The notes under the pieces are model-generated. The model searched no databases and was not told the origin of the DNA. It saw nothing but the letters and a program-made list of their open reading frames with translations. From NCBI GenBank assembly GCA_025356415.1, contig JANXTB010000376.1:1-44080 (forward strand): 44,080 bases of DNA, given 5' to 3'. The DNA is from Hyphomicrobiales bacterium (GTDB lineage Bacteria; Pseudomonadota; Alphaproteobacteria; Rhizobiales; Beijerinckiaceae). Shown here piece after piece: positions 16,499 through 38,116 of this stretch. The position numbers and the translations under genes were made by a program. Numbering within the stretch: the first letter of the stretch is position 1; every line of letters starts with the position of its first letter.

Positions 16499-17227
16499 AT
16501 GTCCTTTTCAACCTGGCGCGGCACTGTGGGAATTGTGCGCCCGACCTATCGTCCCGGCGGCATGGAGGAGCTGATCAAGATGCTTCCCGATGGCGTCGGC
16601 GTGATCCCGCTGTTCGCCGAAATCGAACGCGGCACGCAGGACGAGTTCAAGGAAGCCATCGTGCGCTATCGCAAGAAAGTCGCGAAGCTCGCGGAGATCG
16701 GCATCGATGTCATCAACCCCTCTGGCGCGCCGCCCTTCATGGTGCTGGGCTATGCGGGCGAGGCCGCGCTGATCAAGGAATGGGAGGCCGAGTACAAGGT
16801 GCCGGTTTTCACATCGGGCACCACGCATGTCGACGCCTTGCGCGCGCTGCAGGCGCAGCGCTTCGTCGGCTTCAGCTATTTCGGCGGCGCCATCAACGAT
16901 ATCTATGCGCAATATTTCCGCGACGCGGGACTCGATGTGCTCGACATGGTCGGCCTCGATGTGCCGTTCCAGAAGGTGCAGGAATATTCGAGCCACCTCA
17001 TCTACAGCTGGATTCGCGAGCACATGCGCAAGCATCCAACGGCGCAGGCGATCTACATGCTGGGACCCGCGTGGCGCACGCTCGACATCATCGAGCATCT
17101 TGAGCGCGATTGCCGCGTGCCTGTTGTCCACGCGATTCCCTCGCAATGCTGGGATATCCAGCGCCACCTCGGCCTGCGTCAGCCGGTGCCGGGCTTTGGA
17201 CGCTTGCTTGCGGAGATGGTGGAATGA
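16499..17227 (+). CDS. Asp/Glu racemase superfamily protein (maleate isomerase/arylmalonate decarboxylase-like fold)
   Basis: TLDIIEHLERDCRVPVVHAIPSQCWDIQRHLGLRQPVPGFGRLL matches the C-terminal pattern of AMDase/maleate isomerase as recalled. Confidence 0.75.
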   Translation: MSFSTWRGTVGIVRPTYRPGGMEELIKMLPDGVGVIPLFAEIERGTQDEFKEAIVRYRKKVAKLAEIGIDVINPSGAPPFMVLGYAGEAALIKEWEAEYKVPVFTSGTTHVDALRALQAQRFVGFSYFGGAINDIYAQYFRDAGLDVLDMVGLDVPFQKVQEYSSHLIYSWIREHMRKHPTAQAIYMLGPAWRTLDIIEHLERDCRVPVVHAIPSQCWDIQRHLGLRQPVPGFGRLLAEMVE

Positions 17228-24786: not shown

Positions 24787-24820
24787 CCCGGCGCTGGAAA
24801 CAGCGCCGGGTTTTTATTTT
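24787..24820. terminator. Rho-independent terminator, probably bidirectional
   Basis: aaaaag CCCGGCGCTG gaaa CAGCGCCGGG tttttatttt: perfect 10-bp stem, GAAA loop, T-tract right and A-tract left, between convergent genes. Confidence 0.93.
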
Positions 24821-24834
24821 GGAAACATCCTAGA

Positions 24835-25635
24835 TCAACCGTGCTTGCGGCACCAGTCGATGACGATGCGGTTGAACTGCTCCGGATCTTCGATGTTCGG
24901 CAAGTGCCGCGCCTTCGGGATCATGAGGAATTCGCCCCGTTGTACAGTCCTGGCGATCATGGCGTTTTCTTCCGGGTTGGCGCCGGGATCATCCTCGCCG
25001 CACAGCACATAAGTTGGCGCCGCAATCTTCGAAAGCTGATCCGTCCATTTGAAATTCTGGATCGCCGCCGCGCAGCCGATGTAGCCGGTCGGCGTGCAGG
25101 CCGCGACCGTCTCGCGAATCTGTTTCCAGCGGCCGGGATTACGCGCCTTGAACTCCGGGCTCAGCCAGCGCCCGAGCGTCGTGTCGGCGATCGGCTCCAG
25201 CGAATTGTCGCGGCGGATCTGCACGATGCGCGCGCCCCAGCGCTCCTGCGCGTCGGCCGGCGACTGGCTCTGCGTGTCGCACAGGATGAGCGAGCGCAGG
25301 CGCGAGGCATGGTTGATCCCCAGCCCCTGCCCGATCATGCCGCCGATCGACAAGCCCCAATAAATCGCCTTGTCGATGCCCAGTTGGTCCATCACCTCGA
25401 CGGCGTCGCCGACGAGATCGTCCATCGCATAGAGGCCCGGCGCCGGATCGCTGCCGCCGTGGCCGCGCAGATCCGCGCGCAGCACGCGGAAACCGGCCGC
25501 CGTGAAAGCGGGAACCTGTTCCGCCCACATGCCCATGTCGGATGCGAGCGCGTGGCCGAAAAAAACCACGGGCGCATCTTCACGGCCCACGATGTCGTAG
25601 GCGATGCGAAGGCCATTCTTTTTTCTGTAGAGCAT
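24835..25635 (-). CDS. Alpha/beta hydrolase (3-oxoadipate enol-lactonase/meta-cleavage hydrolase-like)
   Basis: MLYRKKNGLRIAYDIVGREDAPVVFFGHALASDMGMW; nucleophile elbow GLSIGG; terminal H in ARHLPNIEDPEQFN. Confidence 0.88.
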   Translation of the reverse strand: MLYRKKNGLRIAYDIVGREDAPVVFFGHALASDMGMWAEQVPAFTAAGFRVLRADLRGHGGSDPAPGLYAMDDLVGDAVEVMDQLGIDKAIYWGLSIGGMIGQGLGINHASRLRSLILCDTQSQSPADAQERWGARIVQIRRDNSLEPIADTTLGRWLSPEFKARNPGRWKQIRETVAACTPTGYIGCAAAIQNFKWTDQLSKIAAPTYVLCGEDDPGANPEENAMIARTVQRGEFLMIPKARHLPNIEDPEQFNRIVIDWCRKHG

Positions 25636-25649
25636 GTGCGCGTCCCCGT

Positions 25650-26513
25650 TCAGGCCTGATGCGCGCGCACGGGCACGTCCATGCGTCCGATCAGCGGGCA
25701 CTCGAGCGTGATCACATCGCCGGGCTTCACCGGGCCGACGCCCGAGCAGGTGCCGGTGTAGATCACATCGCCCGGATAAAGCGTGTAGAAGGACGTGGCG
25801 AATTCGATGAGGCGGCGGACGTTGTAGATCAGATAGGCCGTGTTGGTCTTCTGCCGCGTCTCGCCATTGACCTTGAGTTCGAGGGTAACGTCGGTCACAT
25901 CCGGAATTTCATCCGCCGTCACCATCCAGGGGCCGAGCACCGCATAACCGTCCGGCGACTTGCGGAACGAGCGGTCTTCCGGACCGCGGATCGTCATGTC
26001 GAGGCCCAGCGTATAGCCCGCGACGCAATCGAGCGCGTTGTCCATGGTGAGGTTAGTGGCCTGCTTGCCGATGACGACGACGAGTTCGAGCTCATGATCT
26101 GTGCGGCGCTCGGGGAAGCGCACCGGCACGCCCTCTGAGGGACCGACGATGGAGGTCGCCGCTTTCAGGAAGAGCCCGTCAGTGCCGATCTTCGCCGTGT
26201 GCTTGGAGCCGCCCGCCTGACGCGCCGCCTCCATTTCGATGATATGGTCCTGATAATTGGTCGGCGCCGCGACGGCCTTGGGCACGCGCGCGATCGGCGA
26301 GAGCAGTTTCACCGACGACACATCGACGCCCGGCGCCTTCTTGGCGGCCTCCATCAACTGATCCTTGATCTGCGGCAGCGCCGCGACCACGGCGTCGCAT
26401 TTCGCGGCGTAGGGCGTGCGCGCGCGAACCTCGGTCTGCACGTCGGTCACATCGTGAATCTTGTCACCGATGACGACGCCGAGACGGTCATCTCCAAAAC
26501 GACAGATACGCAT
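25650..26513 (-). CDS. Fumarylacetoacetate hydrolase (FAH) family protein
   Basis: RFPERRTDHELELVVVIGKQATNL, YTLGLDMTIRGPEDRSFRKSPDGYAVLGPWMVTADEIPDV, LYPGDVIYTGTCSGVGPVKPGDVI. Confidence 0.9.
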   Translation of the reverse strand: MRICRFGDDRLGVVIGDKIHDVTDVQTEVRARTPYAAKCDAVVAALPQIKDQLMEAAKKAPGVDVSSVKLLSPIARVPKAVAAPTNYQDHIIEMEAARQAGGSKHTAKIGTDGLFLKAATSIVGPSEGVPVRFPERRTDHELELVVVIGKQATNLTMDNALDCVAGYTLGLDMTIRGPEDRSFRKSPDGYAVLGPWMVTADEIPDVTDVTLELKVNGETRQKTNTAYLIYNVRRLIEFATSFYTLYPGDVIYTGTCSGVGPVKPGDVITLECPLIGRMDVPVRAHQA

Positions 26514-26533
26514 GTTCTTCTCCTTGAATCAGA

Positions 26534-27934
26534 TCAGGCGCGCAGCGCCGCGACAATGTCCTGCGCCGATGCGAGGCGCTCGGCGTTGAGCACGAGATCG
26601 ACCACGCGATCGACCTTGTCGTTGCTGAATTGCGTCGACGCCAGCTTCCGGAACTTGGAAACGACATCCGCCTCAGTCGCAAACTTCGCCTCGCTGCCGC
26701 GCGGCGCCTCGACGGTTTCCATTTCGACATCGCCGTTCTTGAAGCGAATCTCGACACGCACCTTGTGGCGGAAGCGCGAACCCAGCGCGGTGATCGCCGG
26801 ATCCTCGACCACGTCGACAAGACGCGACACCGCGATGCGGTCCGGATCGGCGACCTTGTCCTGCGTGAATTGCGCGACGAAGACATCGCCTTCCAGCAGA
26901 TAGGTCGCGATGCAATAGGGCAGGTTCAGTTGCGCGGAGGTCAGGCCCTCGGGCTTGTAGGGCCAGCCGACGTGATCTGCGGTGACCTGCGAACCATGCA
27001 CGATGATCTTCTCGATATCGGCGAGCTTGAAAGGATGGCGCGCCTCAATCTCGCGAATGCCGTCGAGCGTCGTGTGATTGCTGCCGACGCAGGAATAGAA
27101 TTTCAGCGCGATCTGCATGGTCTCGAAACGTTCGCCGAGTCCGGCCGACAGAGCCTCGAGATTGTAGCGATCATGCGAACGCGAGAAGGTCGAGCAGAAC
27201 CCGCCATATTCGCTCTCGAACACATCCTGAATGCCGGTGTATCCGCGCCGCGCCAGCATGGCGCCGTAATAGCCGCTCTGCGCGGAACGCCCCGCATGCA
27301 TGCGCTTGACCATCGAGCCATATTGCGCGGCCATGAGGCCGGCGGCCTGCGTGCCGGCGATGCCGAGCGCGTTCACGGTCTGGCCAACATCAAGCCGCAT
27401 CGCCGCGGCGGCGCCCGCGGCCGCGGAATAGACGCCGAGCGTCGCGCCCGAGTGCCAGCCCTGGCCGATATGCTCTTGCCCCATGCAGATGCCCACACGC
27501 GGGCCGATCTCGTAGCCCGCAACCGTCGCTGCAAGAAAATCCTTGCCGGTGATGGCGGCGTTCTTTTCAAGCACCGCGAGGACCGGCGGCAACGTCACCG
27601 CGCCGACATGCAGCACGCCGACGCGATGCACGTCGTCGAGCTCGAAGCTCTGCACCAGCGCGCCGTTGATCAGCACGGCGTGCGGCGCGGACAGCTTTTC
27701 CTTCGTGCCCCAGACCGATGTCGTCGTGCTGGAGTCCTCGTCGCCCAGCGCCTCGCGCAGGATCTTGCTCCACGGCAGATCGACGCCATAAATCGCGCAG
27801 CCGAGGGAATCCAGAACCAGCAGCTTGATGCGCGCGAGCACCTCCGCGGGAATGCGATCATAGGTGAAACCGCTCACGAATTCCGCGATCGCCTGCGTGT
27901 GCGGGTTGCCCCCGGCTCCATGTGACTTGGCCAT
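26534..27934 (-). CDS. MmgE/PrpD family protein
   Basis: AIAEFVSGFTYDRIPAEVLARIKLLVLDSLGCAIYG; LGIAGTQAAGLMAAQYGSMVKRMHAGRSAQSGYYGAMLARRGYTG. Confidence 0.92.
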   Translation of the reverse strand: MAKSHGAGGNPHTQAIAEFVSGFTYDRIPAEVLARIKLLVLDSLGCAIYGVDLPWSKILREALGDEDSSTTTSVWGTKEKLSAPHAVLINGALVQSFELDDVHRVGVLHVGAVTLPPVLAVLEKNAAITGKDFLAATVAGYEIGPRVGICMGQEHIGQGWHSGATLGVYSAAAGAAAAMRLDVGQTVNALGIAGTQAAGLMAAQYGSMVKRMHAGRSAQSGYYGAMLARRGYTGIQDVFESEYGGFCSTFSRSHDRYNLEALSAGLGERFETMQIALKFYSCVGSNHTTLDGIREIEARHPFKLADIEKIIVHGSQVTADHVGWPYKPEGLTSAQLNLPYCIATYLLEGDVFVAQFTQDKVADPDRIAVSRLVDVVEDPAITALGSRFRHKVRVEIRFKNGDVEMETVEAPRGSEAKFATEADVVSKFRKLASTQFSNDKVDRVVDLVLNAERLASAQDIVAALRA

Positions 27935-27950
27935 TTTTCTTTCCCTGCCC

Positions 27951-29303
27951 TTAATGTATCCAGTCGATGCGGCTCGCCTGCTCGAGGCTGCAGAGCCGTT
28001 CGAAAAGTTTTTCCGGATCTGCGTCCGGGTCCTGCCCTGTCATGATCGTGAACCGGGCGCGCAAATCATCCATACTCAATGGACACGACGGTGTCCCCGG
28101 AAAGTCGCTGACTTCGCGCTCGAAAACCCGTCCGTCCGTACATGTCAGCACGGAGCGGGTCATCCAGTCGGAATGGCTCTTGCGGCCATCGCTGACCACG
28201 TCGATCTTGGCGCAGAGCTGCCGCACGGCCTTGTTGTGGAGTTTTGCAGGATCGAAGCTCGCGGGGTCCGCCGCCTTGCCGGTCAGCGCGCAGGCGACCG
28301 AAAACGGGATGCTGTAGTTCGCCATGGCGAGATCGGCCGGCGACTTGTTGCCGTTCAGCTCGGCCATGCGCGACGTGCCGTAAATGATGATCGATTGCAC
28401 GTCCTGCGGCTTCAGTCCTAGCTCGGTTTGCCAGCATTCGATCGCGTAGATCGGCGTGTGCGCGGTGATGTGGCAGGGGTAGCGCTTGAGGCAGAGATTG
28501 AGCGTCTCGTAGTCAACTCCGAGCCCCTCGGTCAGCGTCTCGACGCGATACTTTTCACAATAGGTTGCGAGAAATCCCTTCTGGCCTTCGAGGATCTGAT
28601 GCGGGCCCGAAAAGCCGCGCTCGGCGAGACGCGCGGCGAACAGACCATTTTGCGCGGCGCGCCCGATGTGTAAGCGCTTCACCATCGCGCCCTGTCCCTC
28701 GAATGCGAATTGCATGAGGCCGGCCGACATGGAGCCTGCAATGCCGAAAGCCGAATTCATGGTCGCGGCATTGAATTTGTAGATCCGGCCCACGGCGGCT
28801 GCGGCGCCGAATGGCCCGGTGAGACCTGGCGCATGAAAGCCGCGCGGCTCGGCGGAATGCAGGGTCGCGGCGCCGATGCGCATCAGCACTTCGAAACCGG
28901 CGATCACGCCCGCGAGAAAGTCGCGCCCGCTGGCCTGCCTGTCCTGCGCAGCAGCCAGCGCCGCCGCAACCACGATGGCGCCGGGATGCACGCCGGCGCC
29001 GGGCTTGCGCAGGCTGTCGAGTTCCAGCGCATGGGAGAGCAGGCCATTGGCGAAGGCTGCCTGCTCGGGGGCGAGAGACACTTCGCCGGGACCGATCAGG
29101 CGCGAGAGGCCGAGACCGCCTTCGCTGGCATGCGCCATGGCGATCTGTCCCCATTGCGTCGTGCGACCGCGACGGCCGATGGCGATCGTGTCGATAATGC
29201 ATTCGCGCGCTCGCGCGATGACGTTGTCGGGAACGTCCTCAAGTTGCAGACCGGCCGCGTAGGCCGCCAGCTCCGCGCTATAGGCCTTGGTCGAAGCGCT
29301 CAT
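27951..29303 (-). CDS. MmgE/PrpD family protein (second, divergent copy)
   Basis: ARECIIDTIAIGRRGRTTQWG; FGIAGSMSAGLMQFAFEGQGAMVKRLHIGRAAQNGLFAARLAERGFSGP. Confidence 0.92.
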   Translation of the reverse strand: MSASTKAYSAELAAYAAGLQLEDVPDNVIARARECIIDTIAIGRRGRTTQWGQIAMAHASEGGLGLSRLIGPGEVSLAPEQAAFANGLLSHALELDSLRKPGAGVHPGAIVVAAALAAAQDRQASGRDFLAGVIAGFEVLMRIGAATLHSAEPRGFHAPGLTGPFGAAAAVGRIYKFNAATMNSAFGIAGSMSAGLMQFAFEGQGAMVKRLHIGRAAQNGLFAARLAERGFSGPHQILEGQKGFLATYCEKYRVETLTEGLGVDYETLNLCLKRYPCHITAHTPIYAIECWQTELGLKPQDVQSIIIYGTSRMAELNGNKSPADLAMANYSIPFSVACALTGKAADPASFDPAKLHNKAVRQLCAKIDVVSDGRKSHSDWMTRSVLTCTDGRVFEREVSDFPGTPSCPLSMDDLRARFTIMTGQDPDADPEKLFERLCSLEQASRIDWIH

Positions 29304-30355
29304 TTTTGCGCATCCGGCGCGCGAACGACGACTTCATTGCCTTCGCGGTCGAGCCGCGCGCCGAGTTCGAGGCTGCGCTTCTGCAGGTCGCGTAGCTCTT
29401 CGGTCTCGTCCGCGAGATCGCAGATGTAGGTTTCGTTGATGTCGTTGTGACGGACGAATTCGAAAGCGGCGCGAGTCAATGTGCTCCCGTCGAAATCGAG
29501 CTTCGCCATCATGCCGATCCAGTTTCCATGCGTGTGGCCGCCATGCCCGGTGTGAAACGAGAAACTGCCGAGGCCGTAGAAAATAGGCTTGCCGCGATAG
29601 ACTTCGACGCCGAGCGAGTAATGCGGGCCGTGGCCGATGACAGCATCCGCGCCCATGTCGATCGCGTGATGCGCGATCTCCTTCATGTATTCGAGCACAT
29701 CCTTGTTGAGGCCCCAGTGGAACGACGCAATGACGATGTCGGCGTTTTCACGCGCCGCCTTGATGTCGTCTTCGAGACGCTTCAGGTGATCCTTGTCGGC
29801 CCAGGTCACGATATAGGGCGGTATTCCGGGCCGGTTCATCGGCGGAATTTCACGCTTCATTTTATACATCGGTACTTGGTACGCGGTATGCCCGCGCAGC
29901 ACCGCGATCCCCGCCGCATGTTTTGTGGCTTCATGATTGGTCGCCCAGAACACCGAGCTTTTCTGGATGAACCCGATGCGCTGGCCCTTGCGCGTCACGA
30001 TGGCGGGCGCGCGCGCTTTCACATCAGACGCGCCGGCGCCCGTATGCGCAATGCCGGCGGCGTCAAGATAAGCAATGGATTCGTTGATCGCCTGCTCGCC
30101 GTAATTGACGTTGTTGGCCAGTCCGACAACGTCGATCCCGTAGCGCTTCAAAGCGGTCTGCGCGACATCCGGATTGGCGAAGAAGCCTTCAACGCTCGTC
30201 GAGCCTTCGTTGATCCTGTCAGACAGGCAGCATTCGAGATTCGAAAACACGAGATCGGCGGATTCGAAGGTCTTGCGCATCCGGCGGAATGGAACGTCGG
30301 GGTCGTCGACGTTCATCAAGTTGACGTCGCCTGTGAGCATCAGACTGAAAGACAT
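29300..30355 (-). CDS. CapA-family (poly-gamma-glutamate/metallophosphatase-like) protein
   Basis: MSFSLMLTGDVNLMNVDD, DLVFSNLECCLSD, VVGLANNVNYGEQAINESIAYLDAAGIAHTGAG, IASFHWG, AVIGHGPHYSLGVEVYRGKPIFYGLGSFSF. Confidence 0.85.
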   Translation of the reverse strand: MSFSLMLTGDVNLMNVDDPDVPFRRMRKTFESADLVFSNLECCLSDRINEGSTSVEGFFANPDVAQTALKRYGIDVVGLANNVNYGEQAINESIAYLDAAGIAHTGAGASDVKARAPAIVTRKGQRIGFIQKSSVFWATNHEATKHAAGIAVLRGHTAYQVPMYKMKREIPPMNRPGIPPYIVTWADKDHLKRLEDDIKAARENADIVIASFHWGLNKDVLEYMKEIAHHAIDMGADAVIGHGPHYSLGVEVYRGKPIFYGLGSFSFHTGHGGHTHGNWIGMMAKLDFDGSTLTRAAFEFVRHNDINETYICDLADETEELRDLQKRSLELGARLDREGNEVVVRAPDAQK

Positions 30356-30365
30356 GGCGCGTTCC

Positions 30366-31370
30366 TTATTCAACGATTTCATTGAGGCCCGGAACGACAA
30401 GAGAGGCCGTCGGAATCACTGACGACATATCCTTCAACGCCACCATGTCCTTCATCATGTTCGCGAGCGGAGCCGTATGAATGGCGCTCGTGTGGGCGAA
30501 GAAGTCGATGGACGCCAGGAAGTCGTAACTCTCGGCGATTTCCTCGCGATTACCCTTTGATGCTTCCACGAGAATATCGATGGCCTCGTTGCGATTGTCC
30601 TTGTTGTAGAACCACGCTATGGCCTCGTCCACGGCGGCGTTGATCTCGCGCGCTTCCTTCATGTTCGCCTTGGCCCAGCGCTGCGACACCTGCATGCCGG
30701 TCTGCGGCAGGTCCTGCGCGTAATCCTTGACGAGACCCAGCGATGTAAACCCTCGTTTCACCGCGGCAAAATTGAACGGCGGCACGAGCATGGTCGCATC
30801 GATGGCGCCCGACTGCAGGGCCGCGAAACGCGCGCCGGTCGCGCCAATGACGATGATGTCGTAATCACCGTCCTTGAGGCCAGTCGAGTTCATCACGCGA
30901 TCGAGAAAGATCTTGTTGATGTCGCGCAGGCCGCCGATGGAGATCTTCTTGCCCTTCAGGTCTTTCAGGCTCTTGATCGCGGGCTGGCCGATCATCACGT
31001 AATTCGGCGTCTGCCCGATGATGCGCATGATCGCGACGGGCGCGCCTTTCTCGACCGCATGAAGCGGCTCGGCGAGTCCGTTGACCGCCACAAGATCGAG
31101 CGATCCAGCCGCGAGCTGCTGTACGAGGCCCGGCGCCGTCGGCACGAAGACGACATCGGGCTTGATGCCATGACGCGCAAAGAAGCCTTTCTTCATCGCG
31201 ATGAGAAACGGCCAGACGCCAGACGTATACGAGCCCAGCACGCCGGTCACGACGACCTTTTCGGCCGCGACCGAAGCCTGCGGCTGGACGAAAGCCATTA
31301 CACAGAGCGCCGCGCCGAGAAGACCGGCGCGAATGCTTTTGCCTCCGGCATATTCGCCATCTCGTGTCAT
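30366..31370 (-). CDS. ABC transporter substrate-binding protein (NMT1/SsuA-like) with leader
   Basis: AGLLGAALCVMAFVQPQASVAAEKVVVTGVLGSYTSGVWPFLIAMKKGFFARHGIKPDVVFV. Confidence 0.85.
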   Translation of the reverse strand: MTRDGEYAGGKSIRAGLLGAALCVMAFVQPQASVAAEKVVVTGVLGSYTSGVWPFLIAMKKGFFARHGIKPDVVFVPTAPGLVQQLAAGSLDLVAVNGLAEPLHAVEKGAPVAIMRIIGQTPNYVMIGQPAIKSLKDLKGKKISIGGLRDINKIFLDRVMNSTGLKDGDYDIIVIGATGARFAALQSGAIDATMLVPPFNFAAVKRGFTSLGLVKDYAQDLPQTGMQVSQRWAKANMKEAREINAAVDEAIAWFYNKDNRNEAIDILVEASKGNREEIAESYDFLASIDFFAHTSAIHTAPLANMMKDMVALKDMSSVIPTASLVVPGLNEIVE

Positions 31371-31402
31371 CTTTCCCCTCCCGCTTTTTTTTAGATTTTT
31401 TA

Positions 31403-32341
31403 TCAGCCGTGTTCGACAAGCACGTTTCCGTCAGACCGTAGCTTTTGGGTGGCGCGATGGTAGGAGCTGTCGACATAATCAGAAGGCTTGCCCGGTGTGA
31501 CGCCAGCGCCGAAATGGCGCCTCAGCTCAAGGGTATTTACGAACCCCGCTTCATCGATGGTCGCTGTCGGCTCGAGGCCATAGCGATCGAGCCGCAGCAA
31601 GCGAACGCATTCGCTCGCCACATCCGGTTCCGTGCCAAGTTGGCCGGTGAGGATCGCGACGCAAGCCTCGTGATTGGCCTCATCGAGCACGAAGTCGAGG
31701 CAATCAATGTAGGCGGCGATGTAGCGCGTCACGAGATCGCGGTTGGCTTCCGCCCAGGCGCGCAGGGCGAAAGCTGACCCGGCCTGATACGGACCGATGA
31801 AATCCGTCGTGTCGCCGAAGCTTTTCAGGCCGAGCTTTTTGGCCTCCAGCGTGTAAGGCAGATTGAGTACGGAGGCCGTGTTGGCGCGATCATCCAGCAT
31901 CGCCTTGATGCGCAATTCGCCACGCCCCACCGCCACAACCGCATAATCCTCGCCGCGCTTCAGGCCGGCGTCTTCGAACATGCGGTACGCCTGAAACGCG
32001 AAAGCCGTGTCGGGCGCATCGACGACGAGGCGGCCGCCGCGCATCTGCGCGAGGTCGTCGATCTCCGGCTGCACGATCAACTCGTTCATGCCGGCGTCGC
32101 CGCCCATAAAGACGACGATGTCGACCCCATCGACGTCGCGCAGCGCTACCGCATTGTCGATCGCGACATGCACGATGTGAAAGTCGCCGCGCGCGAGACC
32201 ATCACGCTGAGCACGTGAATTGTCGGTCGACACGACTTCAAGCGCAATGCCGCGCTTTACGAATACGCCTAGATCGAGACCCACGCGCAGCGGCAGGGAC
32301 TTGGCGGTCGGATTGCAATTGACGACGAGATGGTCAGCCAT
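31403..32341 (-). CDS. NMT1/SsuA-like periplasmic-binding-fold protein without recognisable signal peptide
   Basis: MADHLVVNCNPTAKSLPLRVGLDLGVFVKRGIALEVVSTDNSRAQRDGLARGDFHIVHVAIDNAVAL. Confidence 0.75.
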   Translation of the reverse strand: MADHLVVNCNPTAKSLPLRVGLDLGVFVKRGIALEVVSTDNSRAQRDGLARGDFHIVHVAIDNAVALRDVDGVDIVVFMGGDAGMNELIVQPEIDDLAQMRGGRLVVDAPDTAFAFQAYRMFEDAGLKRGEDYAVVAVGRGELRIKAMLDDRANTASVLNLPYTLEAKKLGLKSFGDTTDFIGPYQAGSAFALRAWAEANRDLVTRYIAAYIDCLDFVLDEANHEACVAILTGQLGTEPDVASECVRLLRLDRYGLEPTATIDEAGFVNTLELRRHFGAGVTPGKPSDYVDSSYHRATQKLRSDGNVLVEHG

Positions 32342-32345
32342 GGCC

Positions 32346-33317
32346 TCAGCTCGCCGGCGGCGCGACGAACGCCTCGGACGAAAACGGCACGCTGTGTTCC
32401 GCGTCCTTCATTTCCTTCGAGGGCGGGCCCGCCGCGCCCCATTGATCGTTGCGCCCGGGCTGCGGAACCCATTTCTCGACCGCGCCCGGCGCATAGGTTT
32501 CATCGATCTGCTGCACTTCCGCGGTGTATTCGAGCGGCAGGCCCTCGAAGCCGGAAAAATAAGCGAAGATGTTGTTGCCCGGCCCATGGCGGCCGACGCC
32601 CCAGCCGATGCTGAAGCCGGCGTCACGCATCCGTCCGATGCCGCGCATGACCGCGTCAAAGCCGCTCATCTCGAACGCGAGATGATGCAGCGTGGAGACG
32701 TCCGAGGGCACGACGGCGATCGTGTGGTGATCGGAATTGCAGTTCAGGAAAAACATCTTCCGCGTCCGGTCGACGACGCGAAAGCCGAGCGCGCCGGCGT
32801 AGAATTTTTCGAGCACGTCAGGTTGCGGCGTGTTCAACACGAGATGCGACAGCTTGAGCGGAGCATCATTGCGCGTCGCCTCCGCGGCGTCGCGCGCATC
32901 ATCGGCGACCAGCATGATGAGGCGCCCCTCGGGATCGCGGAACGACAGGCCGTAGCCGCCGCCGGGCTCCGACAGGACCTCGACGTCGCCGACATGCACG
33001 CCTTGCGCCTGCAGCACGGCCCGCCTTTCCTCCAGCGCAGCACGGGACGCCGCGCGGAAATCCGCCCTCAGGACCTCGGTCTTGTCGCGCTTGTGCAGGC
33101 CAATCAAGTAGCCGCTGGCGCCAACCGCACGCAGATAGACGGACGAGGGCGTGCGCGCCATCACCTCGAGCCCCCATGGGCCGGCAAAGAAATCCACCGC
33201 GGCGGCAAGGTCCATGACGCCGAACTGGACGCTCCGGAGCGCGTAGACGAAGGCGCGCTGGGCGCTCTCCTGCAAGCTTTTCATCGTTACACCTGAGTTA
33301 TTCATCATGGACGCCAC
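32346..33317 (-). CDS. VOC-family extradiol-type dioxygenase
   Basis: Candidate metal ligands LSHLVLN, LHHLAFE and PLEYTAE (H,H,E) plus NSDHHTIAV; alternative start MKSLQESAQRAF at 33284. Confidence 0.85.
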   Translation of the reverse strand: MASMMNNSGVTMKSLQESAQRAFVYALRSVQFGVMDLAAAVDFFAGPWGLEVMARTPSSVYLRAVGASGYLIGLHKRDKTEVLRADFRAASRAALEERRAVLQAQGVHVGDVEVLSEPGGGYGLSFRDPEGRLIMLVADDARDAAEATRNDAPLKLSHLVLNTPQPDVLEKFYAGALGFRVVDRTRKMFFLNCNSDHHTIAVVPSDVSTLHHLAFEMSGFDAVMRGIGRMRDAGFSIGWGVGRHGPGNNIFAYFSGFEGLPLEYTAEVQQIDETYAPGAVEKWVPQPGRNDQWGAAGPPSKEMKDAEHSVPFSSEAFVAPPAS

Positions 33318-33398
33318 GAGGGCGTTCCTCTAGCGTTGGGTTTGGGAGGAATTCTCGATTTTTCGGAGGCCGCTGGCCAATCTGAAAAACGGGAAATC

Positions 33399-33417
33399 TG
33401 ATAGCTTTTTCGGATCA
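33399..33417. promoter_or_regulatory. Candidate LysR-type regulator box TGAT-N11-ATCA
   Basis: TGATagctttttcggATCA in the intergenic region divergent to the LysR gene; matches T-N11-A spacing. Confidence 0.4.
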
Positions 33418-33449
33418 AAGAACTCGAGCCATAACTTGAGCGACCACAC

Positions 33450-34715
33450 ATGAACCATCTCAAACGCCTACCGAGTTTCCGGCATCTGCGCGTCTTCGAG
33501 GCGATCGCCGAATGCCGGAATTTCAGCCGTGGCGCGGCGTCTGTTCATTTGTCACAACCAGCTGCGACGCAGGCGGTTTTCAATCTCGAGAAATGGGTCG
33601 AGGCGTCGCTTTTTTATCGCAACAAGGGCGGCACTTATCTGACGACCGAAGGCGATATTTTCCGGCTCGGCGTGAGGCGCCTGTTTGAGGCCGTCGAGCA
33701 AAGTCTGGCGCATGATTTGTTCGACGGGTCGAGCGAGCGCGCCAAGCAACTCGCGCCCCGCATCAAATCCTCGCACGTCAACGTGCTGCGGGCGATTTCC
33801 GAATTCTCGTCCCTGGAGCTCGCCGCGAACTTCCTCGGCCTGTCGCGTGCTGCGGTGCAGCGTATCGCGCGCGATCTTGAGGCTACGCTCTCGTCCACGC
33901 TGTTCGAGCGGACGCCGCGCGGCGTATCGGCCAATGCGCTGGGCATGCGCGTCAGCGCCTCGTTCCAAAAAGCCTTTCTGGTGATCGACAACGCTGTCGA
34001 AGAGATCGCCTCGCTGCAAAAGCAGTTCTCGACGCATCTCTACATTGGCGCACAACCGCTCGCCTCCACCTCATTGCTCGCCGCGGCCGTCAACGATCTG
34101 CTTGCGCAGCACCCGCAAACGCAGGTGCGCATCATCGAGGGCTCGTACCAATATCTACTGCAGGAGCTGCAGTCAGGCCGGCTCGACATGATGTTCGGCG
34201 CGCTGAAGTGCCCGAAATCCCTGGACAATGTAAACGAGATCGCGCTGTTCCAGGAGCCCTATTGCGTCGCCGCGCGCGCCGGTCATCCGCTGACCAAGAA
34301 GGCAAGGGTGACGTTGCGCGATCTGGCCGAGGTCGACTGGGTTCTGCCGGGCGCCGGAACGCAACGCCGTCTCGCATTCGAGATGATGTTCAAGGATCAT
34401 CCCAAAACGCCGACCTCGCAGATCGACGCGACATCCGTCTCCGCGCAGATCGCGTTTCTCACATCGAGCGATCGTCTCGCCTTGCTGACGCCGCTTGAAT
34501 TGGCGCTGGATCCGCATATGGGGAGCCTCGCGCAGATCAATTTCGACACCAAGATCGCGCGCAAGCCGGATGGCGTCACGGTGCGCTCGGACTGGCGGCC
34601 CAATGTCGTGCAGACGGCTTTTCTCGAGGGCCTGCGCAAGCGTGTTGCGACATCGACCTTGAGCCCCTCGGCGAAGATGCCGACGGGCTTCCCCGCGCTC
34701 GATCGCGCCGGCTGA
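33450..34715 (+). CDS. LysR-family transcriptional regulator with apparent tandem HTH domains
   Basis: RHLRVFEAIAECRNFSRGAASVHLSQPAATQAVFNLEKWVEASLFYRNKGGTYLTTEG followed by NVLRAISEFSSLELAANFLGLSRAAVQRIARDLEATLSSTLFERTPRGVSANALG and a LysR substrate-binding domain. Confidence 0.9.
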   Translation: MNHLKRLPSFRHLRVFEAIAECRNFSRGAASVHLSQPAATQAVFNLEKWVEASLFYRNKGGTYLTTEGDIFRLGVRRLFEAVEQSLAHDLFDGSSERAKQLAPRIKSSHVNVLRAISEFSSLELAANFLGLSRAAVQRIARDLEATLSSTLFERTPRGVSANALGMRVSASFQKAFLVIDNAVEEIASLQKQFSTHLYIGAQPLASTSLLAAAVNDLLAQHPQTQVRIIEGSYQYLLQELQSGRLDMMFGALKCPKSLDNVNEIALFQEPYCVAARAGHPLTKKARVTLRDLAEVDWVLPGAGTQRRLAFEMMFKDHPKTPTSQIDATSVSAQIAFLTSSDRLALLTPLELALDPHMGSLAQINFDTKIARKPDGVTVRSDWRPNVVQTAFLEGLRKRVATSTLSPSAKMPTGFPALDRAG

Positions 34716-34813: not shown

Positions 34814-35710
34814 ATGTATCTGCTGGGAGACTCCATCCCCGCTTCGCCTCCGGGGCTGCGGTTTCGTGAACTTTTGACCAAGGCCGGGATCCTCGGCATT
34901 CCCGGCGCCCATAACGGGATGGCGGCGCTGCAAGCCAAGCGCGCTGGGTTCGAAGCGCTCTATCTGTCGGGCGCCGCCGTGTCGGCCTCCATGGGCCTGC
35001 CCGATCTTGGCATCCTCACTATCGAGGACATGGCCTTCTACATCCGCCAGGTGTCGCGCGCCTCCGGCCTGCCCGTGCTCGTAGATGGCGACACCGGCTA
35101 TGGCGAAGCGCTCAATGTCATGAACATGGTGCGCTCCTTCGAGGACGCCGGCGCCGGCGCCGTGCATCTGGAAGACCAGATTCTGCCCAAGAAATGCGGT
35201 CATCTCAGCGACAAGAAGATCGCCAGCCGCGACGACATGGCGGCCAAGGTCGCCGCAGCGGCGCGCGCGCGCCGCCACCTCTACATCGTCGCCCGCACGG
35301 ATGCTGCCGCGAGCGAGGGGCTGGATGGCGCCGTCGAACGCGCCAAGGCCTATCTGGCGGCGGGCGCCGACGCCATCTTCCCGGAGGCGCTGACGGATGA
35401 GGGTATGTTCCGCGAATTCGCGCGCCGCATCGACGCGCCGCTGCTCGCCAACATGACCGAGTTCGGCCGCACGCCGTTTTTCACCAAGGACCAGTTCCGC
35501 GACATGGGCTACCGCATGATGATCTGGCCGGTGAGCTCGCTGCGCGTCGCCAACAAGGCGCAGGAAAATCTGTACCAGACGATCAAGGCGAAGGGCTCGA
35601 CGGAATCCCTGTTGCCCGTCATGCAGACGCGCGCCGAGCTTTACGAGACGATCGGCTATCACGAATTCGAGTCGCTCGATCAGTCGATCGCCCGCTCAAT
35701 TATCCCGTAG
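34814..35710 (+). CDS. prpB: Isocitrate lyase/PEP mutase family, methylisocitrate lyase-like
   Basis: YLSGAAVSASMGLPDLGILT, VDGDTGYGEALNVMNMV, GAGAVHLEDQILPKKCGHLSDKKI (KKCGH motif). Confidence 0.82.
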   Translation: MYLLGDSIPASPPGLRFRELLTKAGILGIPGAHNGMAALQAKRAGFEALYLSGAAVSASMGLPDLGILTIEDMAFYIRQVSRASGLPVLVDGDTGYGEALNVMNMVRSFEDAGAGAVHLEDQILPKKCGHLSDKKIASRDDMAAKVAAAARARRHLYIVARTDAAASEGLDGAVERAKAYLAAGADAIFPEALTDEGMFREFARRIDAPLLANMTEFGRTPFFTKDQFRDMGYRMMIWPVSSLRVANKAQENLYQTIKAKGSTESLLPVMQTRAELYETIGYHEFESLDQSIARSIIP

Positions 35711-35719
35711 CGAATAACT

Positions 35720-36106
35720 TCAAGCCGGGCTCGGAAGCACCGGCTTGAAGACGCCCGTCGCCTTGGCGACGATGCGGCCCGCCTCGTTGCGCACTTCGCC
35801 TTCGCAAAAGACGATGTTACGCCCGCCGCCGGTGGCGCGGCCCTCAGTCACGAGGCGACCTTCGCCGGGCGCCAGAAACGCCGTCTGCAGGTCGATGGTG
35901 ATGAAGCCGGTCGCGCCCTCGACGCTGTCGCGCGCGGCGCGGCCGAGCGCCACGTCGAGCATGGTCATCAGCAGCCCGCCATGCGCATGGCCGCGCGTGT
36001 TGGAAATCGGCGACGCCACCACGACGGACAGGCGAGAAACGCCTGCGGGCGCCTCCTCCGTTACAACACCGCAATGCTGCAGGAACGGTATCGTCTGCTC
36101 GCTCAT
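35720..36106 (-). CDS. PaaI-family hotdog thioesterase
   Basis: NTRGHAHGGLLMTMLDVALGRAARDSVEGATGFITIDLQTAFLAPGEGRLVTEGRATGGGRNIVFCEGEV. Confidence 0.9.
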   Translation of the reverse strand: MSEQTIPFLQHCGVVTEEAPAGVSRLSVVVASPISNTRGHAHGGLLMTMLDVALGRAARDSVEGATGFITIDLQTAFLAPGEGRLVTEGRATGGGRNIVFCEGEVRNEAGRIVAKATGVFKPVLPSPA

Positions 36107-36984
36107 CGCGGCGCCAGTTTCAAGATCTCGCGGGCTTCCGCGGGCGAGGCGATATTGCCGCCGATGTGCTGCACGAGCCGCACGGCGCGGCGCACCAGTT
36201 CCGCATTGTCGCGCGCCTGTACGCCGCGCTCCATGTAAAGATTGTCCTCGAGCCCAACCCGAACATGCCCGCCCAGCACGACCGCCTGCGCGAGCATCGG
36301 GAATTCATGACGGCCGATGCCGAAGGCCGCCCATGTGGCGCCTTGCGGCATGAGGGTCTTGAACAGCATCATGGTTTCGGGCGTCGCAGGCGCCCCCCAC
36401 GGCACGCCGAGCACGGCCTGGAACAGCGGATGTGGGCCAAACATGCCCTTTTCCGCGAGATGTCGCGCCAGCGCCATGTGCCCTGTGTCAAAGACCTCCA
36501 GCTCGGGCTTGACGCCGAGACGCGCAATCTCTGTCGCCATCATTTCGATGTGGCGCTGCACGTTGACCAGCGTCACGCCGGCGAAATTCAGCGTGCCCAT
36601 GTCGAGGGTGCAGATCTCCGGCCGCAAGGCCGCAACGTGCGCGATGCGCTCCATCGGCGTGCGCAGGTTCGAGCCCGCTGCCGCTGTGTTATGCGCCTCG
36701 TCGGAGGGGTTGAAGCGCGCGCCCGGCCCCGTTGTCAGGTTGATGATCACCTCGCTGCCGCTTTCGCAGATGCGCTCCACGACGTCGCGATAAAGCGCGC
36801 CATCCATGCTCGGCTTGCCGGTCACAGGATCGCGAACATGGATATGCGCCACCGCCGCGCCGGCGCGACACGCTTCGATGCACGCGTTGGCGATCTGCTC
36901 GGGCGTGACGGGCACGGCCGGAAAACGGAAGGCGGTGTCGTCGCCGCCCGTCACCGCGCAGGTGATGATGGTTTTCGCGTTCAC
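36103..36984 (-). CDS. Beta-keto acid cleavage enzyme (BKACE; 3-keto-5-aminohexanoate cleavage family)
   Basis: AKTIITCAVTGGDD, AAVAHIHVRDPVTGKPSMDGALYRDVVERI, INLTTGPG, PELEVFDTGHM, GHVRVGLEDNLYMERGVQARDNAELV. Track start 37038; GTG at 36984 preferred. Confidence 0.92.
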   Translation of the reverse strand: MNAKTIITCAVTGGDDTAFRFPAVPVTPEQIANACIEACRAGAAVAHIHVRDPVTGKPSMDGALYRDVVERICESGSEVIINLTTGPGARFNPSDEAHNTAAAGSNLRTPMERIAHVAALRPEICTLDMGTLNFAGVTLVNVQRHIEMMATEIARLGVKPELEVFDTGHMALARHLAEKGMFGPHPLFQAVLGVPWGAPATPETMMLFKTLMPQGATWAAFGIGRHEFPMLAQAVVLGGHVRVGLEDNLYMERGVQARDNAELVRRAVRLVQHIGGNIASPAEAREILKLAPR

Positions 36985-36997
36985 GCTGCTTCGCCCC

Positions 36998-38116
36998 TCA
37001 TGCCACGGCCCGGACAGGCTGGGCGCCGATGGCCGCATTGACGCGCGGCAGGACTTCCGTCGCCATCAGCTCCATCGAGCGCTTGGTCAGATACGGATCG
37101 ACCCAGTCCATCCCCGCATAGACGAGTTCGCCGAAGTCGCCGACCTCCTCGCGCAGCGCGAGGATCTTGTCGACGACCTTGTTCACCGTTCCGTAGAGCA
37201 CGAGATTGTCGAGGACGTAATCGACCGTGATTTCCGAGTCCGGCTGATCGCGGTCGTTCTTGAAAATGATGTGACGGTTGGCGCGCATCATCTTCTGCAG
37301 CATCTGGTGATAATAGGCGCGATAAGGGCTCTTCGCGTCTTCTATCGCGTAGCGGCGCGCGGTCGCCTCGTCATCGGCAACGAACACCGTGCGGGCGATG
37401 CGCCAGTCTTCGGGATTGGCGACGGCGCCAACCTCTTCCTTGCCCTTCACATAATTGGGCCAATGCGTCTTGACCCACTTGGAGAGCAGGAAGTTGGCCG
37501 ACAGCGGATGGAAGTCGCGACGGCCCATGGCGATGACGCCCTTCGAGAAAGGCGCCACGACCGTGCCGACGATCTCTGGCCGGGGCTGCTGATAGGGCTT
37601 CGCCAGATATCCGACGCCAAGATCGAGCTTGCCGGTCTTGCGCGTCGACACCTTGAACTGGTTGCCGGGCAGATCGATGTCGTAGGGCGGGTCGCGTTTC
37701 CAGATTTCGAGGATCACGTCGATCGAATCCTCGAACATTTTCTGGCGGTCGAAATCCAGCGTCTGCAGCGCCTCGGCGTCGGTTGGCAGCGCGCCCGCGC
37801 TGATGCCGAAAATGAAGCGGCCCCTCGTCAGATGATCCATCATCGCGGCGTTGGAGGCGATCAGCGTCGGGTGCATCTGCGAGAGGTTGGACGTGCCGGT
37901 CGCGAGCTTGATGGTTTTCGTCTCGGAGATCAGGCTCGACAGGAAGATCATGCTGTTGGTGACGTTTTCCAACTTGTCGGTCAGGTGCTCGCCGACAAAC
38001 GCGTCATGAAAGCCAAGCTTGTCGGCGAGGATGATCGCCTCGCGATCCTCCTTGAGCGTCTCGGCCCAGTTCCGCTCGATTGGATGCATCGGCATGGTGA
38101 AATAGCCCAGACGCAT
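36998..38116 (-). CDS. LLM-class flavin-dependent oxidoreductase (limonene-monooxygenase/luciferase-like)
   Basis: MRLGYFTMPMHPIERNWAETLKEDREAIILADKLGFHDAFVGEHLTDK; NAAMMDHLTRGRFIFGISAGALPTDAEA. Confidence 0.9.
   Translation of the reverse strand: MRLGYFTMPMHPIERNWAETLKEDREAIILADKLGFHDAFVGEHLTDKLENVTNSMIFLSSLISETKTIKLATGTSNLSQMHPTLIASNAAMMDHLTRGRFIFGISAGALPTDAEALQTLDFDRQKMFEDSIDVILEIWKRDPPYDIDLPGNQFKVSTRKTGKLDLGVGYLAKPYQQPRPEIVGTVVAPFSKGVIAMGRRDFHPLSANFLLSKWVKTHWPNYVKGKEEVGAVANPEDWRIARTVFVADDEATARRYAIEDAKSPYRAYYHQMLQKMMRANRHIIFKNDRDQPDSEITVDYVLDNLVLYGTVNKVVDKILALREEVGDFGELVYAGMDWVDPYLTKRSMELMATEVLPRVNAAIGAQPVRAVA

Follow-up and report, generated by a model that had tools for sequence, protein, structure and literature searches.

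A window of 44,080 nucleotides, positions 1 to 44,080 of contig JANXTB010000376.1 from a Hyphomicrobiales bacterium of the family Beijerinckiaceae (assembly GCA_025356415.1), carries eight minus-strand genes that encode a VOC-family protein, two proteins with substrate-binding-protein (SBP) folds (SBP1 and SBP2), a CapA protein, two MmgE/PrpD proteins (PrpDa and PrpDb), an FAH-family protein and an alpha/beta hydrolase (ABH), and that lie divergently from genes for a LysR-type regulator and PrpB (Table 1). A preliminary description, made from the sequence alone, had read the eight as one tightly packed operon closed by a strong terminator, and this layout held: all eight open reading frames were found in that place and on that strand, with their families above curated Pfam cut-offs. 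Likely starts were set by comparison with the closest relative, locus L055 (VOC near 33308, CapA ATG 30355, although the CapA open reading frame itself opens at TTG 30400, and hydrolase ATG 25635), and leave successive gaps of 4, 32, 10, -4, 16, 20 and 14 nt, the negative value being the ATGA overlap of CapA and PrpDa. The terminator, a 10-bp stem (9 G-C) followed by CTTTTTG, begins 24 nt past the last stop, and a run of A residues flanking it on the opposite side may allow a convergent plus-strand gene to share it. Codon comparison with L055 revealed purifying selection on all eight genes and zero frameshifts, as in PrpDb (132 third-position against 15 amino-acid differences) and FAH (76 against 15). 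The regulator has two tandem N-terminal helix-turn-helix (HTH) domains, an architecture shared by its orthologue in Jiella, and the 132-bp divergent intergenic region (33318-33449) contains long blocks identical to L055, for example AGAACTCGAGCCATAACTTGAGCGACC, that form a probable regulator site.

Table 1 Features of the operon and its divergent neighbours in the window.
Feature	Position	Strand	Basis
VOC-family putative extradiol dioxygenase	32346..33308	-	Pfam Glyoxalase 54.9 bits; start via L055
SBP1, NMT1-type binding-protein fold	31403..32341	-	Pfam NMT1_2 25.4 bits
SBP2, SsuA/NMT1-type substrate-binding protein with leader	30366..31370	-	Pfam NMT1 73.4 bits; leader visible
CapA (PGA_cap), distinct subfamily	29300..30355	-	PF09587 176.8 bits, cut-off 27
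PrpDa, MmgE/PrpD family	27951..29303	-	Pfam
PrpDb, MmgE/PrpD family	26534..27934	-	Pfam
FAH-family hydrolase/isomerase/decarboxylase	25650..26513	-	FAA_hydrolase 173.1 bits
ABH, nearest 3-oxoadipate enol-lactonase PcaD	24835..25635	-	TIGR02427; start via L055
Intrinsic terminator, 10-bp stem and T run	24787..24810	-	9 G-C pairs, then CTTTTTG
LysR-type regulator, divergent from operon	33450..34715	+	Pfam HTH_1 x2 and LysR_substrate
PrpB, methylisocitrate-lyase type with KKCGH motif	34814..35710	+	TIGR02317 426 bits, cut-off 354

Related loci were sought with SBP1 in 298 genomes of the window's family and with a CapA profile in a species-level genome collection. The locus was found in metagenome-assembled genomes (MAGs) titled Beijerinckiaceae or Hyphomicrobiales bacterium and in Jiella sonneratiae of the Aurantimonadaceae (L061). 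The genes CapA-PrpDa-PrpDb-FAH-ABH are contiguous, co-oriented and in the same order in the window, L055 and L057-L061, and PrpB and the two-HTH LysR gene are linked to them in all seven loci; PrpB orthologues are 75-87% identical in six of six relatives, and the LysR orthologue is likewise found in all six. L056, a truncated contig, keeps this order as far as it reaches. L058-L060 belong to the window's own genus and were counted once, L034-L036 apparently being the same genomes obtained via a second collection. The conserved neighbourhood that the preliminary description had proposed to look for thus extends through related genomes into a second family, and we regard the conserved operon and its composition as secure. 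Outside these loci, PrpDb was detected at E 1e-80 or better in 3 of 397 other genomes of an order-level sample and in none of the 398 others in a phylum-wide sample of 399, so that the system appears to be rare. No described operon uniting CapA, MmgE/PrpD and ring cleavage was found in the open-licence literature, where CapA and a leaderless binding protein also had no place in any described pathway found, as the preliminary description had supposed for meta-cleavage pathways.

Gene context supports well the view that one half of this system handles polycarboxylates. PrpB exceeds the methylisocitrate lyase cut-off, in line with the PrpB-like lyase first noted across the regulator. PrpDa and PrpDb share 27% identity, and the nearest solved relatives of PrpDa are cis-aconitate decarboxylase and IDS-epimerase. 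The MmgE/PrpD family has a His/Glu/His/His/Lys/Lys active-site set (PMC12290011), which PrpDa retains completely (alignment A8) and PrpDb retains except for the first His, replaced by Gln as in all its relatives but L090; the low identity together with this difference suggests that they are probably two different enzymes and not a recent duplication. Against the 2-methylcitrate dehydratase model TIGR02330, PrpDb scores 33.6 bits (cut-off 458) and PrpDa gives no match. Genome G598 has two loci in which PrpDb and PrpB stand apart from any ring-cleavage genes: a TctC-like transporter gene accompanies them in one (L088), PrpDa and a TcuA-type dehydrogenase above its cut-off in the other (L089). 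On contig C325 of the window's own genome, two PrpF genes adjoin a gene for a FAD hydroxylase; PrpF2 scores 472 bits with the 4-oxalomesaconate tautomerase model (cut-off 440), and PrpF1 shares 85% identity with the PrpF adjoining PrpB in L057. The tricarboxylate-like intermediate proposed earlier thereby gains independent support, and its main support, both from PrpDb/PrpB sets that stand with PrpDa, TcuA or a transporter gene outside ring-cleavage loci and from a tautomerase-type PrpF beside the hydroxylase.

Evidence for a ring-opening half centres on the VOC protein, a two-domain protein of about 320 amino acids that aligns along its length with extradiol dioxygenases and whose 2-His-1-Glu site (H158, H212 and E266, counted from the start GTG 33317 used in the preliminary description) aligns with the corresponding region of BphC, in the second domain. 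Its closest solved relative is 3b59, an uncharacterised VOC protein (1.4e-51), and it scores 91 bits against the catechol 2,3-dioxygenase model (cut-off 320) and 89.6 against HpaD (cut-off 321). The earlier call of an extradiol dioxygenase with meta-cleavage logic is thus borne out as to the fold and the three metal ligands but not as to a catechol 2,3-dioxygenase assignment, and ring cleavage is a plausible reading of those features. ABH has Ser, Asp and His motifs and scores 224.5 bits against the PcaD model (cut-off 255.85), and the best NCBIfam match of FAH is the C-terminal half of HpaG (136 bits, under the cut-off). A FAD hydroxylase lies near the operon in five relatives (L057-L061), and its orthologue in the window's genome (81% identity) is the C325 gene mentioned above; the nearest solved proteins are tropone 2-monooxygenase, a decarboxylative vanillate 1-hydroxylase and 6-hydroxynicotinate 3-monooxygenase. 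Three VOC relatives on other plasmids have genes for MhpA-like hydroxylases and FAH beside them, joined in two cases by amidohydrolases, and in Novosphingobium aromaticivorans such a VOC/hydroxylase/FAH set lies beside a CapA and a PrpD gene as well. The C325 stretch (L111, 626-19938) is a second catabolic island that also holds TauD, TctA/TctC, a sulfomuconolactone-hydrolase-like amidohydrolase and two further PrpD genes.

The CapA protein belongs to a subfamily with 13 relatives (53-84% identical to the window protein) in which the signature NNVNYG (NNVTYG in Jiella) replaces canonical NNHxxDxG and is two residues shorter (alignment A2); other CapA proteins aligned have a His after the Asn, mostly in NHxxDxG or similar. 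Structurally, the closest solved protein to its AlphaFold2 (AF2) model is the lasso-peptide epimerase MslH (Foldseek 3e-27), although it scores 88 bits against the MslH equivalog cut-off of 700. In MslH the catalytic dyad is His88 and Asp91, and Asp11, Glu44, Asn87, His259 and His295 form a metal site or second dyad (PMC10406935). By alignment, CapA keeps equivalents of these five as D16, E47, N88, H219 and H251, with no clear equivalent of MslH His261. With the His and Asp of NNHxxDxG lost, CapA is no two-dyad epimerase of the MslH type and is without the usual metallophosphoesterase histidine, yet it retains most of a metal site. Among 29 other CapA genes of an order-wide sample, two have a PrpD gene no more than 2 kb away, where about 0.06 such cases would be expected (P about 0.0015, with the 2-kb limit picked after viewing the data). 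Both loci encode peptide-type transporters and are without genes for ring cleavage. This proximity is an association and not a function. The CapA-PrpD pairing recurs outside the operon, so that the question of a catabolic role for CapA extends past this locus.

The subfamily was rejected as a pathway marker on its own, because loci in Rokubacteria and betaproteobacteria share it without the operon; in one betaproteobacterium (L062) the subfamily CapA gene lies between two TcuA genes. An alignment of CapA proteins from a plasmid collection contained mostly other subfamilies in other catabolic clusters. CapA genes also occur in conserved sphingomonad plasmid clusters with a TRAP transporter, coenzyme A (CoA) transferases and a 2-hydroxyacyl-CoA dehydratase (L077, L082), another catabolic context, and in a Variovorax plasmid cluster with isopropylmalate-dehydratase-type subunits, an ICL/PEP-mutase protein and an acyl-CoA ligase (L073).

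From gene content, conservation, family membership and residue patterns, we propose, as a reading that we hold to be evenly balanced between right and wrong, that the conserved operon degrades an aromatic acid, probably hydroxybenzoate-like, and that its lower half uses chemistry of the methylcitrate-cycle type; reactions, step order and substrate are inferred. SBP2, with the permease and ATPase present in relatives, would import the substrate, and the LysR-type protein would control both divergent units. The flavoprotein hydroxylase would prepare the ring and the VOC dioxygenase open it, after which the enol-lactonase-like ABH and FAH would convert the product, by hydrolysis or tautomerisation, into an unsaturated oxalomesaconate- or aconitate-type acid with two or three carboxylates. 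PrpF-type tautomerases encoded elsewhere in the genome, PrpDa and PrpDb would then isomerise and (de)hydrate this polycarboxylate, and PrpB would cleave it by a retro-aldol reaction to pyruvate and a dicarboxylate. CapA would most likely contribute metal-dependent proton transfer, hydrolysis or decarboxylation on a polycarboxylate.

Several observations weigh against this proposal. VOC is the least constant member of the operon (81% identity in L055, 51% in L060, about 40% in L057-L059 and 30% in Jiella) and may be a variable component or no ring-cleaving enzyme, although its being the most variable gene and below every equivalog cut-off may also mean that it fits the pathway to the substrate. 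VOC, ABH, FAH and both PrpD proteins fall under every equivalog cut-off, the oxalomesaconate route depends on a single gene above a cut-off, and most of the relatives are closely related MAGs. The genes for the hydroxylase and PrpF sit on a contig other than the operon's; with these genes elsewhere and the ATP-binding cassette (ABC) permease and ATPase absent, the operon in the window makes up only part of the system.

The most serious rival is a pathway confined to aliphatic compounds. The operon would then act on polycarboxylates without an aromatic ring: VOC would hydrolyse or isomerise an aliphatic lactone, PrpDa and PrpDb would be isomerases or dehydratases, and PrpB would be the lyase. 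It draws its strength from an itaconate operon of Pseudomonas aeruginosa with an MmgE/PrpD isomerase, in which RdoPA, a 127-amino-acid VOC protein annotated as a ring-cleaving dioxygenase, proved to be a 2-hydroxyparaconate lactonase (PMC9875883, PMC12290011), and it would also accommodate both the variability of VOC and the PrpDb/PrpB/PrpDa sets that lack ring-cleavage genes. However, we consider it unlikely, because the window's VOC protein is a far longer two-domain protein with three metal ligands and an extradiol-dioxygenase alignment, the locus comes with a FAD hydroxylase of the aromatic type, and VOC relatives on plasmids keep company with MhpA-like hydroxylases and FAH.

Transporter genes differ among the loci. 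A TauC/SsuC-like permease and a TauB-like ATPase are encoded between SBP1 and SBP2 in L055 and L057-L059, and both adjoin SBP1 in L060; the window and Jiella are without an ABC permease and ATPase at the locus. In the window, SBP1 and SBP2 are 32 nt apart and meet in a stretch similar to the junction between ATPase and SBP2 in L055, which fits loss of the transporter genes in the window's lineage, although MAG misassembly may be an alternative cause; a permease 62% identical is encoded on contig C122 of the same genome. SBP2 is the probable partner of the ABC transporter present in relatives. Inspection of starts in seven operon orthologues of SBP1 gave no convincing leader, and in the window and L055 a single start is possible. 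The AF2 model of SBP1 (predicted local distance difference test, pLDDT, 88) has a type II periplasmic-binding fold, and its Foldseek matches (3qsl at 1.1e-18) span transport binding proteins and the enzyme Thi5; weak Protein Data Bank (PDB) matches to CagY were dismissed as composition matches.

Because no orthologue has an export signal and the gene is kept in both lineages that lack the permease and ATPase, SBP1 is likely cytosolic and is probably an enzyme or ligand sensor, which we find likelier than a transport protein. That SBP1 is instead a normal ABC binding protein exported by another route, its leaderless start being meaningless, would agree with the fact that L055 and L057-L060 have it directly upstream of the genes for permease and ATPase, and with the leaders borne by some of its paralogues (L040, L043); we judge this to be distinctly improbable, given the single leaderless start, its persistence in the window and Jiella, and the leader-bearing SBP2 as the obvious transporter partner. 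Distant SBP1 homologues occur in four loci with PrpF genes (L037, L038, L044, L045), three of which also have a PrpB-like gene. The first of these, on contig C363 of the window's own genome (L037, 3675-8944), encodes PrpF, a phosphoenolpyruvate (PEP)-mutase-family protein, an SBP1-like protein (44%), an isochorismatase and TctC. SBP1 may conceivably be kin to 4,5-dihydroxyphthalate decarboxylase; a literature search for such a link gave nothing, and a suspected relative on C325 had no match in a Pfam and NCBIfam scan.

The least probable alternative, an ordinary 4-hydroxyphenylacetate or catechol meta-cleavage operon with CapA (as a capsule protein), the PrpD pair and SBP1 as passengers, would explain the sub-threshold matches of VOC to HpaD and catechol 2,3-dioxygenase and of FAH to HpaG, but is very hard to reconcile with an order of CapA-PrpDa-PrpDb-FAH-ABH kept in seven loci of two families, with the ATGA overlap of CapA and PrpDa, or with the fact that the scan of window genes showed none for a capsule, a semialdehyde dehydrogenase or a 4-oxalocrotonate tautomerase.

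Several known systems can be compared with the proposed aromatic-acid pathway. It resembles the methylcitrate cycle in its PrpB and in the PrpD and PrpF families present in the operon or genome, but the PrpD proteins are a dissimilar pair far under the PrpD equivalog cut-off and are linked to putative ring-cleavage genes; no PrpC or citrate-synthase-family gene was seen among the window genes scanned, other contigs not having been searched for PrpC. PrpF2, beside the hydroxylase orthologue, recalls the Gal/Lig 4,5-cleavage of gallate and protocatechuate, but the operon has a VOC protein in place of a LigB-type dioxygenase. Neither that enzyme nor a GalB/LigJ hydratase or GalC/LigK aldolase was recognised in the operon, no genome-wide search having been made, and PrpD and PrpB would take the hydratase and aldolase roles. 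Clustered FAD hydroxylase and VOC dioxygenase (FdeC/IfcB) genes are described for flavonoid A-ring degradation by the fde and ifc clusters of Herbaspirillum and Variovorax (PMC11069340), a likeness drawn from the description, but cupin proteins are used there and PrpD is unmentioned in the ifc paper. The Pseudomonas aeruginosa itaconate/methylsuccinate cluster likewise combines MmgE/PrpD, VOC and lyase genes in an operon (PMC9875883, PMC12290011) but follows a CoA-dependent route with the short VOC lactonase and, as described, no CapA or FAH gene. MslH and CapA/PGA_cap proteins share with the operon CapA the fold and five equivalent residues, whereas the latter is without the His88/Asp91 motif and has a catabolic gene context.

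More tentatively, and with the balance against it, the operon may represent a new route that leads aromatic rings into methylcitrate-type chemistry, in which the dissimilar PrpD pair and PrpB stand in for the hydratase and aldolase of the oxalomesaconate pathway, while the His-less CapA subfamily and leaderless binding-protein fold are unrecognised enzymes. If true, this would connect the breakdown of aromatic compounds with the enzyme set of propionate (methylcitrate) metabolism and place CapA-family proteins, whose usual annotation is capsule synthesis, in a catabolic role; it would also add a further case of a binding-protein fold acting inside the cell.

Elsewhere in the window, minus-strand genes for a beta-keto acid cleavage enzyme (BKACE) and an LLM flavin monooxygenase (36103-38116) adjoin PrpB, are followed by an ABC transporter and probably form a separate catabolic unit. 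An arylmalonate decarboxylase-family gene (16499-17227) lies beside one for a TctC-type binding protein.

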